Shown here: in pieces, positions 33,473-38,386 of the stretch
How positions within the stretch are numbered: the stretch's first letter is position 1
Layout of the letters: the number at the start of each line of letters is the position of its first letter
Source: Rhodocyclaceae bacterium
Lineage (GTDB): Bacteria > Pseudomonadota > Gammaproteobacteria > Burkholderiales > Rhodocyclaceae
DNA length: 64,000 bases
Direction of reading: 5' to 3'
Assembly (NCBI GenBank): GCA_018262775.1
Contig: JADFDU010000056.1
Coordinates: 1 to 64,000 of the forward strand
Notes under the pieces: generated by a model
The model's database searches: none
The model's input: the letters and a program-made list of their open reading frames with translations, nothing else
What the model was told of the DNA's origin: nothing
Made by a program: the position numbers and the translations under genes

Positions 33473-33823
33473 ATGCGTGCCAACCTTGATTTCCCGACCC
33501 TGCTTGCCGCAGCAGCGCTGCTGGTGTCGCCGGTGGCGTCCGCCGGCCAGTCTGCGGCAACCTTATATGCCCTCAACTGCATGGGCTGCCATCTGCCTCC
33601 GGAAGAGGCGAAGCAGCACGCGCAACCTCTGCGCGGCCAATTCGCGCACAGTACAACCGGTCGAATCTTTTTCATCAGTGTACCCGCTGCCAGCGGGCGG
33701 CCCTTGACGGCCGCCGAGGATGCCGTGCTGATGGAAGAAATCCTCACCTGGAAGCGCAGCTGCAGCGCGATCCTGCAGCAGGCGCCGCTGGTGCGCTACA
33801 GTGGGGAAAAATTCGTCAAATGA
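33473..33823 (+). CDS. Small c-type cytochrome
   Basis: 116 aa; signal peptide, LNCMGCHLPPEE heme motif; stop overlaps next start (ATGA). Confidence 0.82.
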   Translation: MRANLDFPTLLAAAALLVSPVASAGQSAATLYALNCMGCHLPPEEAKQHAQPLRGQFAHSTTGRIFFISVPAASGRPLTAAEDAVLMEEILTWKRSCSAILQQAPLVRYSGEKFVK

Positions 33824-34896
33824 GCGTGTTGCGGCGAGCGCTGGGTATGCTACTGCTGGCGGGCACGATACTGCCGACCGTTGCGGCGGATCTGCGCCTT
33901 GAGCCCCTGCCGCCGCCGGCGCAGGTGAATGCGGCTATGGCCGAGCTGGGCCACCACCTGTTCTTCGAGACGCGGCTGTCGGGCGACGGCAGCCGCAGCT
34001 GCGCCAGTTGCCATGTGCCCTCGAAGGGCTTCGCGGACGGCCTGGCGCTGTCGCGCGGTTATAACGGCACCGAGTATTTCCGCAATGCCCCCGGCTTGCT
34101 GTCGCTGCGGCTGAAACCACGCATGATGTGGGATGGTCGCAGTACCGATCTTGCCGGCGTGGTGCGCGAGATGACTACCGACGCCCAATTCATGAACGGC
34201 AATACGCTGATCATCGCCGAGCGCATCCGGCAGATTCCACCGCTGCATGCGCAATGGCGCCGCGTTTTCGGCGAAAAGAACGAACTGCGTGGCGAGCAGG
34301 CTTTTCAAGCCATCGCCGAATTTCTGAAAACGCTGGATTACGCGCCAGGCTCCGCCGATGCAGCCTTGCGCGGAGAGAGCGTGCTGCCGCCGCTGGCCGG
34401 CGAGGGCCTGCGGCTGTTCGCCGGCAAGGCCGGTTGCGTGCAGTGCCACAACGGGCCGCTGCTTTCGGACGGCAAGCCGCACCGGCTCGGCGTGCCCGAC
34501 CACCCGGCGTTGGTGCGCGAGCCACTGCGCACCATCAGCTTGCTGCGCCACTATGCCGAACAGAACCTGCCCAGCCCGATGAGCGAGCGCGGCGATGTCG
34601 GTGTCTATGCCATCAGCAAGCAGCCGGCCGAGCGTGGCAGCTTCATCACGCCAGCACTGCGGGGTCTGGTGCATAGCGGGCCCTACATGCACAACGGCCG
34701 CTATGCCACGCTGGACGAAGTGGTGGATTTCCACGACCGGGGCGGCGGTGCAGGCAGCGAATTGCATCCGCTCGGCCTCAGCGCGCATGAGCGACAGGCG
34801 CTGGTGGCCTTTCTGCGCACCCTCTCAGGGCCGCTGCAGCAGGTAGACGTGCCGCCGGCCTACGACTACGGCACGGTGGCGGGAGACCGGCGGTGA
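33820..34896 (+). CDS. MauG/cytochrome c peroxidase family di-heme protein, copy 1
   Basis: 358 aa; CASCH and CVQCH, SGPYMHNGRYATLDEVVDFHDRGGG. Confidence 0.87.
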   Translation: MSVLRRALGMLLLAGTILPTVAADLRLEPLPPPAQVNAAMAELGHHLFFETRLSGDGSRSCASCHVPSKGFADGLALSRGYNGTEYFRNAPGLLSLRLKPRMMWDGRSTDLAGVVREMTTDAQFMNGNTLIIAERIRQIPPLHAQWRRVFGEKNELRGEQAFQAIAEFLKTLDYAPGSADAALRGESVLPPLAGEGLRLFAGKAGCVQCHNGPLLSDGKPHRLGVPDHPALVREPLRTISLLRHYAEQNLPSPMSERGDVGVYAISKQPAERGSFITPALRGLVHSGPYMHNGRYATLDEVVDFHDRGGGAGSELHPLGLSAHERQALVAFLRTLSGPLQQVDVPPAYDYGTVAGDRR

Positions 34897-36074: not shown

Positions 36075-38386
36075 TCGACAGCGCCTTCGTCAACCTCTGG
36101 AACCGTCTTGTGATGGACCGCCGCAACTGGTGGCTGCCGCTGCTGGTGGTGCTGGCGATTGGTTTGGGCAGCATGCTATTCGTCGGCACGCGCACCTACC
36201 AGGACGCCCCGCCGATCCCGGAGTTCGTTGCCGAATCCGGCGAGACGGTGGTCTCGGCGGCCGCCATCACGCGCGGCCAGATCGTATTCCTCAAATACGG
36301 CCTGATGAACTACGGCTCCATGTTCGGCGACGGCGCCGGCCGCGGGCCGGACTTCACCGCCGATGCCCTGCATGCCATGGCGCTCGCGATGCGCGATTTC
36401 CATGCTTCGCGCGAAGGCGTCGATGCAGCCGGCGCGCAGGCCCGCGCCCAGGCCGAGATCCGCCACAACCGCTACGATCCTGCCAGCAACCGCACGACGT
36501 TGGGCGAGGCCCAGGCCTACGCCGCGCGCGAACTGGGGCGCCGCACTGCCGCCATGTTCCGCGGTGAGGGCACCGAAGCCTTCCATCCGGTCGGCTACAT
36601 CACCGATGCGGCGGAACTGCGCGATCTGGCCGCCTTCTTCTTCTGGGGCGGCTGGGTGTGCGGCGCAGCGCGCCCCGGTCAGGACTACAGCTACACGCAC
36701 AACTGGCCCTACGACGAACTGGCCGGCAACCGTCCCAGCGCGCCGGTCATGCTGTGGAGCGTGGCCGCCGCCCTCGGCCTGATCGCTGTGCTCGGCGTGG
36801 TGCTGTTCCTCTACGGCCGCTATAGCAGTCTGGCCAGCTGGCGCCAGGCCGGCGACGCGGCGCGCCTGGCCACCCTGACACGCATCGAGACCTTCGGTCC
36901 GACACCGCTGCAGCGCGCCACCTACAAGTTCTTCGCCGCCGCGGCCCTGCTCTTCGTGCTGCAGATCATCGCCGGCGTGCTCACCATCCACGACTTCCTG
37001 CGCTTGACCCACTTCATGGGCATCGACCTGGCCGAGGCGCTGCCCATCACCATCGTGCGCGCCTGGCACCTGCAACTGGCCCTGATGTGGATCTCCGCCT
37101 GCTGGGTCGGCGCTTCGGTGTTCGTCCTGTCCGCCGCCCAGCGCGAAACGCCGCAGGGCTTGTTCGGCGAACTGAACCTGCTGTTCGGACTGTTCGTCGT
37201 CTGGGTGGCAGGCAGCCTCGTCGGCATTGCGCTCGGCAGCAAGGGGCTGCTGGGTGAGCACTGGAATCTGCTCGGCAATCAGGGCTGGGAGTTCGTCGAG
37301 ATGGGCAAGCTGTGGCAGGGCGTGCTGTTTCTCGTCTTCGCCCTGTGGCTGCGCATCGTCGCGCGCCTGGTGCGCACGGTCTGGCACGAGGGCGATGCGT
37401 GGACCCTGCCGAAGTGGCTGCTGTACGCCGTCGCCTGCGTCCTGCTGCTTTTTATTTCCGGCTTTGTCGCCCGGCCGGAAACCAATTTCGTTATCGCCGA
37501 CTTCTGGCGCTGGGCGGTGATCCACATGTGGGTGGAAGCCTTCTTCGAGGTGTTCACCACAGCGCTACTGGCCTACTTCATGTTCCTCATGGGCTTCGTC
37601 AGCCACGCTGCTGCTTCGCGCATCGTCTATCTGGCCACGCTGCTGTTCCTCGGCTCCGGCCTGCTCGGCATCTCGCATAATTTCTACTGGAACGCCAAGC
37701 CCGAGGCAACCCTGGCCATCGGCAGCATCTTTTCGACCCTGCAAGTGGTACCACTGATCCTGCTCACCCTGGAAGCCTGGCAATTCCGCAATACGCCACA
37801 GCGGGCCCTGGAGGGTGCCGGCGGACGCGCCGCCTTCGGCCAGGCCGAAGCCTTCCTGTTCCTGATCGGCGTGAACTTCTGGAACTTCTTCGGCGCCGGG
37901 GTGTTCGGCTTCATCATCAATCTGCCGATCGTCAATTACTACGAGCACGGCACCTATCTGACGGTCAACCACGGCCATGCGGCACTCATGGGCGTCTATG
38001 GCAATCTGGCCATCGCCGCCGTGCTCTTCTGCAGCCGCTACCTGATCGCGGCGCAGGCCTGGGACGCGCGCCTGCTGCGCCGCATCTTCTGGGCGCTCAA
38101 CCTCGGCCTGATGCTGATGGTGGCGATCGACCTGTTCCCGGTCGGCATCGCCCAACTTAACGAAGTGCTCGCCCACGGCCTGTGGCAGGCCCGCTCGCAA
38201 TCATTCGTGCAGGGAGACCTCTTTCAGACCCTTACCTGGGCACGCATCATCGGCGGCGCACTCTTCGTCATGGGCGGCGTCCTGCCCCTGGCGTGGTTCA
38301 TGGCCACGCGCGCCTTGGCCCTCAAGCACGCTGGATCCGGCGTGCCTGCAGTCCTTGCCGGCGAGCCGGTCCAGGCACCGGAGTAG
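36071..38386 (+). CDS. norZ: Quinol-dependent nitric oxide reductase, single subunit (qNor)
   Basis: 771 aa, ~14 TM; N-terminal qNor extension (FLKYGLMNYGSMFGDGAGRGPDFTADALH), NorB-like core with VNHGHAALMGVYGNLA; ATGA overlap with the MauG-like gene. Confidence 0.9.
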   Translation: MIDSAFVNLWNRLVMDRRNWWLPLLVVLAIGLGSMLFVGTRTYQDAPPIPEFVAESGETVVSAAAITRGQIVFLKYGLMNYGSMFGDGAGRGPDFTADALHAMALAMRDFHASREGVDAAGAQARAQAEIRHNRYDPASNRTTLGEAQAYAARELGRRTAAMFRGEGTEAFHPVGYITDAAELRDLAAFFFWGGWVCGAARPGQDYSYTHNWPYDELAGNRPSAPVMLWSVAAALGLIAVLGVVLFLYGRYSSLASWRQAGDAARLATLTRIETFGPTPLQRATYKFFAAAALLFVLQIIAGVLTIHDFLRLTHFMGIDLAEALPITIVRAWHLQLALMWISACWVGASVFVLSAAQRETPQGLFGELNLLFGLFVVWVAGSLVGIALGSKGLLGEHWNLLGNQGWEFVEMGKLWQGVLFLVFALWLRIVARLVRTVWHEGDAWTLPKWLLYAVACVLLLFISGFVARPETNFVIADFWRWAVIHMWVEAFFEVFTTALLAYFMFLMGFVSHAAASRIVYLATLLFLGSGLLGISHNFYWNAKPEATLAIGSIFSTLQVVPLILLTLEAWQFRNTPQRALEGAGGRAAFGQAEAFLFLIGVNFWNFFGAGVFGFIINLPIVNYYEHGTYLTVNHGHAALMGVYGNLAIAAVLFCSRYLIAAQAWDARLLRRIFWALNLGLMLMVAIDLFPVGIAQLNEVLAHGLWQARSQSFVQGDLFQTLTWARIIGGALFVMGGVLPLAWFMATRALALKHAGSGVPAVLAGEPVQAPE

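Follow-up and report, generated by a model that had tools for sequence, protein, structure and literature searches.

A putative nitric oxide dismutase gene at the end of an aromatic amine dehydrogenase operon in Burkholderiales

We analysed a stretch of 64,000 nucleotides from a Rhodocyclaceae bacterium (order Burkholderiales; GenBank assembly GCA_018262775.1, contig JADFDU010000056.1, positions 1 to 64,000 of the forward strand), hereafter called the window. It carries a single-strand, collinear run of genes from 21.48 to 38.39 kb that begins with aauBEDA, the genes of a predicted aromatic amine dehydrogenase (AADH) with the cofactor tryptophan tryptophylquinone (TTQ), and ends with nod, the gene of a putative nitric oxide (NO) dismutase. 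We propose that the run is an operon under AraC control by which a denitrifying bacterium of the Burkholderiales oxidises primary amines (aromatic or alkyl), and that Nod would serve amine oxidation during denitrification; judging from the genomes, the chances that this reading is right are about even. The neighbourhood of nod was itself reported in 2026: in metagenome-assembled genomes (MAGs) of Burkholderiales from eutrophic lakes, two cytochrome c peroxidases (CcPs) and 'mauABED' were found beside nod and left unexplained (PMC13386854, mSystems June 2026). The arrangement is the same as ours, but it was named methylamine utilisation there, whereas the subunits found here are those of an AADH. 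New in this work are the AADH assignment, the full operon, the operator and regulator (including those of a detached nod), a relative lacking nod, and the ligand analysis of the di-heme pair that precedes nod.

Identity of the last gene product

The first-pass annotation of the window dealt with the four genes that close the run, and read them as a cytochrome, two MauG-like proteins and a quinol-dependent NO reductase (qNor). The four open reading frames were found again at the same coordinates and in the same order:

33473-33823, + strand: cytS, small monoheme c-type cytochrome; one CXXCH (CMGCH); position before mauG1 kept in relatives
33820-34896, + strand: mauG1, di-heme CCP_MauG protein, IdrP1-like; CXXCH at residues 61 and 206; His at the MauG-Tyr294 column
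34893-36074, + strand: mauG2, di-heme CCP_MauG protein, IdrP2-like; CXXCH at residues 73 and 220; Phe at the MauG-Tyr294 column
36071-38386, + strand: nod, putative NO dismutase of 771 aa (the qNor of the first pass); N537, Q558, R311 and G729; in the Nod clade

The small cytochrome has one haem motif and each di-heme protein two, and the three stop/start overlaps (ATGA at 33820-33823, GTGA at 34893-34896 and ATGA at 36071-36074) are exactly as described. Since cytS scores below the Pfam cut-offs, its name depends on the CXXCH motif. The annotation did not take in the full locus, whose genes are collinear all the way from aauB (21483) to nod (38386) and are preceded by a regulator gene and an operator.

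The qNor label, on the other hand, was wrong. In the definition of Ettwig et al., putative NO dismutases have Asn for a His of the FeB site, Gln for Glu and a lost quinol site (PMC3413370), and the 771-aa protein shows all of these. Relative to the qNor of G. stearothermophilus (3AYF), the FeB ligand H560 is replaced by N537, the catalytic-site E581 by Q558, and the quinol-site residues E332 and D746 by R311 and G729. It thus has N, Q and G where a qNor has H560, E581 and D746. H307 (H328 in qNor) is retained, as in 44 of 99 Nods, and so are the other ligands of haem b, haem b3 and FeB (H333, H634, H636, H485, E489 and H536).

Scanning species genomes with the degenerate motif HNFYWxAKP gave at least 120 loci in many phyla, and we aligned 99 full-length Nods with 29 qNors of the order. 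The H560 column is Asn in 99/99 Nods, which were selected by this motif, and His in 29/29 qNors. The two columns outside the motif separate the families just as well: at E581 all 99 Nods have Gln and all 29 qNors Glu, and at D746 the 97 readable Nods have Gly or Ala and the 29 qNors Asp. The tree separates Nods from qNors with a support of 1.0. The window protein falls within the 99-member Nod clade, where it forms one group with those from Sulfuritalea, Polaromonas and Burkholderiaceae MAGs (support 0.94). From its residues and its placement, the nod product is a putative NO dismutase and not a qNor.

The same substitutions, lost quinol site and haem histidines characterise the Nod of Candidatus Methylomirabilis oxyfera (DAMO_2434 and DAMO_2437), strain HdN1 and Muricauda (PMC3413370). 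However, the Methylomirabilota loci we found belong to a WIAKP clade, whereas the window Nod belongs to a WNAKP clade shared with many Bacteroidota, and its neighbours form an amine-oxidation operon instead of a methane monooxygenase. Three genomes of the same family (G514, G590 and G560; loci L239, L240 and L241) encode Nod-like proteins only 46-47% identical to that of the window, with neither di-heme pair nor aau genes nearby. Around the nod of G539, a genome of the same genus (L237), the downstream genes resemble by eye those for O2-independent ubiquinone synthesis (ubiT/ubiV) and the upstream ones resemble multihaem cytochromes. No Nod was found in the viral contigs searched.

The amine dehydrogenase operon and its di-heme pair

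The genes that precede cytS in the run, all on the same strand, are as follows:

21483-22628, + strand: aauB, AADH heavy chain (PF06433; best PDB match 2h3x_A, 4.6e-89)
22628-23176, + strand: aauE, MauE-type membrane protein (PF07291, E=2.7e-30)
23181-23780, + strand: aauD, MauD-type thioredoxin-like protein, between aauE and aauA (Redoxin family matches)
23791-24318, + strand: aauA, TTQ-bearing AADH light chain (PF02975, E=2e-53; best PDB match 2i0r_D, 1.6e-54)
24315-24746, + strand: cytX, monoheme cytochrome c (PF00034, E=2e-10; CVVCH; start overlaps the aauA stop, TTGA)
24794-26164, + strand: DUF1329 protein (PF07044, E=7e-137)
26193-28040, + strand: DUF1302 protein (PF06980, E=5.9e-143)
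28146-30506, + strand: RND/MMPL-family exporter (PF03176, E=3.7e-25)
30515-30997, + strand: TerB-like protein (PF05099, E=6e-28)
31033-31953, + strand: YCF48/BNR-type beta-propeller protein (PF14870; start codon approximate)
32007-33440, + strand: aldehyde dehydrogenase (ALDH; PF00171, E=1.8e-140), 83-87% identical in G301, G493, G535, G673, G723, G431 and G083

By its light- and heavy-chain matches, the TTQ enzyme is an AADH, with aromatic amine oxidation as its predicted activity. AauA has both TTQ tryptophan motifs (KVAWIGTC and NDINWC) in alignment with 2i0r_D, and 2agl was also matched. The subunits match the PDB entries of Alcaligenes faecalis, whose aau operon has the same order, with the gene of a small monoheme cytochrome after aauBEDA. 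The A. faecalis cluster is not known to contain mauG. The window adds to it the block from DUF1329 through DUF1302, RND, TerB and YCF48-like to ALDH, the di-heme pair and nod.

The first-pass annotation had suggested, as one of two options, that the two MauG-like proteins mature the TTQ of the upstream dehydrogenase. A TTQ enzyme is indeed encoded upstream in the same collinear run, but a MauG-type role of the pair finds no support in its ligands. Both copies have in common with MauG the superfamily, two CXXCH motifs, an inter-haem Trp and a TTQ dehydrogenase in the same operon. Yet the alignment has His (mauG1) and Phe (mauG2) at the Tyr294 column, which is Tyr in Methylobacterium MauG, and both copies fall far below the cut-off of the NCBIfam MauG family TIGR03791 (158.8 and 224.7 bits for a cut-off of 443.85). 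The equivalents of the distal Gln103 and Glu113 are missing from mauG1; mauG2 retains both and has Ala for Pro107. The Met ligand of the high-potential haem of CcPs is absent too, with Phe at that column in mauG2 and His in mauG1. When this Tyr ligand is exchanged for His, MauG and BthA lose the bis-Fe(IV) state, with peroxidase activity retained by BthA (PMC6405878). Because of the His and Phe at this column and the distal residues lost in mauG1, TTQ synthesis by the pair is unsupported, and the two proteins probably do not act as MauG does.

By pairwise identity, as opposed to a full superfamily tree, the partners of the pair are tandem proteins of Azonexus and Thiothrix, copy matching copy: mauG1 is 49-51% identical to their first copies (38% to Methylobacterium MauG) and mauG2 55% identical to their second copies (46% to Methylobacterium MauG). 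These nearest relatives found stand before AioBA-type genes, an order described as mauG-mauG-aioBA (PMC3834237). It also corresponds to the idrP1-idrP2 order of iodate reductase clusters, for which a peroxide-detoxifying role has been proposed (PMC8692401), and in our reading the Azonexus and Thiothrix genes are idr rather than aio. The Azonexus and Thiothrix proteins retain the Tyr that is His and Phe in the window. We searched beside the pair for the molybdenum oxidoreductase IdrAB and found none within the gene run, where AADH is the partner instead.

Conservation and control of the locus

The first-pass annotation asked for a search for the conserved gene order, and proposed that its absence elsewhere would speak against a functional link. 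The order cytS-mauG1-mauG2-nod was found in the source genome (G000) and in nine others (G300, G301, G302, G304, G431, G493, G535, G673 and G723), so that this objection falls. The same stretch also carries aauBEDA, or its aauB end, in G301, G302, G304, G493, G535, G673 and G723. The layout is collinear, as in the window, in G493, G302 and G304; G300 is split over contigs, and G431 ends at a contig edge. In G493, a closed genome of the same genus, the locus has the same location, before gmk and spoT. Among the first six Burkholderiales Nod genomes found, all have aauB, compared with 22 of 400 genomes of the order.

The mauG2/nod overlap (ATGA) recurs in G301, G302 and G304, and the cytS/mauG1 and mauG1/mauG2 overlaps in most relatives, including G083, which lacks nod. 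This conservation puts the overlaps beyond chance, yet overlaps of 4 nt are commonplace in operons. In G302, mauG2 (L153, 10048-11050) is read in two frames, from a frameshift that is either genuine or a sequencing error.

Two kinds of relatives show how the parts of the locus are bound. G083 has the full operon and the di-heme pair without nod, so the pair belongs to the aau operon. In G535, G673, G723 and G301 (whose contig stops within aauE) the locus is split: aauBEDA-cytX-DUF1329-DUF1302-RND-YCF48-like genes run one way and ALDH-cytS-mauG1-mauG2-nod the opposite way. AauB is only 47-51% identical there, and the nod half 71-87% identical, except for cytS (52-55%). With the nod half so well kept beside a half-identical aau, the ALDH-pair-nod block is the tighter unit, with a changing aau neighbour. 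Between genomes, nod and mauG2 are about 70-86% identical, whereas SpoT is 58-69% identical in the same genomes, which is consistent with horizontal transfer or strong conservation of the nod block.

Upstream of the run lie a regulator gene, operator-like boxes and an accessory gene group:

20233-21249, - strand: AraC-family regulator, divergent from aauB (PF12833)
21370-21387, + strand: operator-like box TTGCCGATTTGGGATAAC, the best match in 64 kb (itself in the training set)
16843-16860, + strand: second, weaker operator-like box, before the class-III aminotransferase gene; second-best in the window, 16.8 bits
16859-18292, + strand: class-III aminotransferase, first gene of the accessory group (PF00202)
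18295-19566: UPF0261 protein, then a HAD-like protein that ends at 20225

Homologues of the AraC gene stand divergent from aauB in G302, G304, G083, G300, G417 and G493. The regions upstream of aauB in the window, G302, G304, G083 and G417 have TTGCCGATTTCGGMTAAC in common, with a TAGAAT-like -10 at +38; in the window this is TAGAAT at 21408-21413, 38 nt from the start of the box. G300 and G493 too have this box, with the same 38-nt offset, upstream of aauB, and where the operon is split (G301, G535, G673 and G723) its two halves are separated by a pair of divergent boxes. Orthologues of the box at the aminotransferase are found in G083 and G493, and the accessory group recurs near the aau locus in G083, G300, G302, G303, G304, G493, G535 and G673.

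In G303, aau and the pair are on one contig and nod is on another. We built a weight matrix from five sites (window, G302, G304, G083 and G417), leaving G303 out. Over 40 kb of G303 the matrix scores highest at a site that lies 97 nt upstream of the nod match (16.8 bits, against 9.9 for the next), with TAGAAT at +38 and an AraC homologue divergent from nod. None of 3000 dinucleotide-preserving shuffles of the region reached this score. The aau cluster of G303 (L157 and L192, contig C33) has neither AraC gene nor operator upstream of aauB, and is probably under other control than in the relatives.

Control of the locus by FNR or Dnr was considered and rejected, as FNR-like sites occur before nap (TTGACATTTATCAA at 47428, just upstream of napD) and in the nos region (57741), with none in the AraC-aauB interval or just before nod.

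A role of Nod in amine oxidation and its alternatives

The source genome has the makings of denitrification. Both napA and nosZ are inside the window, with periplasmic nitrate reductase genes (napDA and napH) at 47492-52130 on the + strand and a nos cluster with a Sec-dependent NosZ at 56081-63966 on the - strand, and NirS proteins are encoded on contig C52. We found no canonical cNor or qNor in the source genome. The idea that Nod is its sole NO-consuming enzyme was nevertheless dropped: the nirS contig encodes a Ba3-like haem-copper protein with Gln for the active-site Tyr (GHSSQQ), an eNOR signature (G000:C52:64204-65502, - strand, L197), which has homologues in G300 and G304. A further haem-copper subunit, on C30 (G000:C30:10358-11686, - strand, L195), has at the Tyr position Asn, the residue listed for sNOR-type NO reductases. 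With an eNOR-like protein present Nod is not the only candidate for handling NO, which makes a special role likelier than plain NO removal.

In the sequence of events we favour, an amine would lead the regulator to induce the whole operon jointly, and the amine dehydrogenase would feed electrons by way of the cytochromes into the periplasmic chain. NirS would reduce nitrite to NO, and Nod would convert NO to N2 and O2 beside the amine system. Either this O2 or peroxide formed from it could then meet an O2-dependent need of amine oxidation under denitrification. The candidate needs are TTQ formation in the dehydrogenase, or a terminal oxidase at which O2 would accept the electrons drawn from the amine. 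As for the di-heme pair, it would most likely handle peroxide or carry electrons from one partner to the other between cytochrome and dehydrogenase. In TTQ formation of the MauG type, a mono-hydroxylated Trp is processed by oxygen or peroxide chemistry (PMC7876137, PMC6405878), so a cell without air faces a real obstacle to TTQ synthesis, one that O2 made on the spot would remove. The narrower idea that Nod is the dedicated O2 source for TTQ formation in AADH, by which a nitrate-respiring bacterium would make without air a cofactor that normally needs O2, is attractive but tentative, and we think it will probably prove wrong. Terminal oxidases remain general candidates for O2 use. Phenylacetyl-CoA epoxidase was rejected as a general O2 user: PaaA/PaaC were clear in no more than two genomes, G300 and G417, while G301 gave a weaker match and the source genome, G302, G303, G304 and G083 gave traces.

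Several observations weigh against a role of Nod in amine oxidation. So far no Nod has been purified, let alone characterised, and results on dismutation conflict in the literature (PMC13386854). The ligand residues of the pair make MauG-type maturation by it a disfavoured route. None of the 21 other aau genomes carries nod, and the AADH clusters inspected lack the pair except in G083, so that neither is needed for AADH generally. G539 has a Nod 71% identical to that of the window, and the 13 kb or so upstream of its gene are free of aau genes. The operator was built from few sites, some of them in related genomes. Finally, the arrangement in G303 may stem from a deletion that fused the old aau promoter to nod, which would tell of an origin in the operon and not of a continued functional need; even so, it suggests expression of nod from the amine promoter.

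Instead of making O2, a Nod-like enzyme might take electrons from AADH through cytX, cytS and the pair and reduce NO to N2O or N2, a periplasmic route from amine to NO. The loss of the quinol site is clear, the cytochrome and di-heme genes are overlap-coupled upstream of nod, and nosZ is close by for any N2O. We nonetheless consider this route unlikely. All 99 Nods compared share its quinol-site and active-site changes although most have no di-heme genes in the examined flanks, and the changes hence did not evolve for this partner. Moreover, we found no cytochrome-docking domain, the Glu replaced by Gln is at a position tied to catalysis in NO reductases (E581; PMC3413370), and the pair is present in G083 without nod.

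Similarly improbable is a protective function, in which Nod and the pair would detoxify NO and peroxide where reduced TTQ and cytochromes are exposed to NO and O2, the O2 produced being incidental. Di-heme CcPs do reduce H2O2, mauG2 retains its distal Gln and Glu, IdrP1 and IdrP2 are the proposed H2O2 detoxifiers of iodate respiration (PMC8692401), and NO- or peroxide-related regulators lie near some other nod genes (PMC13386854). However, an enzyme that makes O2 would be an odd choice for protection, and mauG1 lacks the distal catalytic residues. The simple peroxide/NO defence module offered by the first-pass annotation is likewise unsupported: the shared operator binds nod to amine-linked control, and the nirS contig encodes an eNOR-like protein besides.

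It is harder still to see nod as a mere hitch-hiker, inserted once behind an ancestral aau operon and spread by transfer among functionally unlinked neighbours. The linked Nods do form one clade (0.94), G083 has the operon without nod, and the excess of nod and mauG2 identity over that of SpoT is as for a mobile block. But the overlap coupling was retained in several genera, and where the aau half was replaced and inverted, ALDH-cytS-pair-nod stayed intact with its own operator. As for an ordinary qNor beside ordinary CcPs with no special function, Pfam does assign COX1 and a NorB cytochrome-c-like domain and the best PDB match is a qNor, but the full set of Nod-specific substitutions and the placement inside the Nod clade refute it at the family level and leave it next to no probability.

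Automatic 'qNor' calls can thus conceal Nods, and 'MauG' calls beside TTQ enzymes need a check of the ligands. In 2026 it was still regarded as open what non-methanotroph bacteria with Nod use the O2 for (PMC13386854). Operon position and a shared operator tie nod to primary amine oxidation by a TTQ enzyme in some ten genomes, and the locus thereby points to a specific use, open to testing, to which bacteria might put the O2 that they make from NO.

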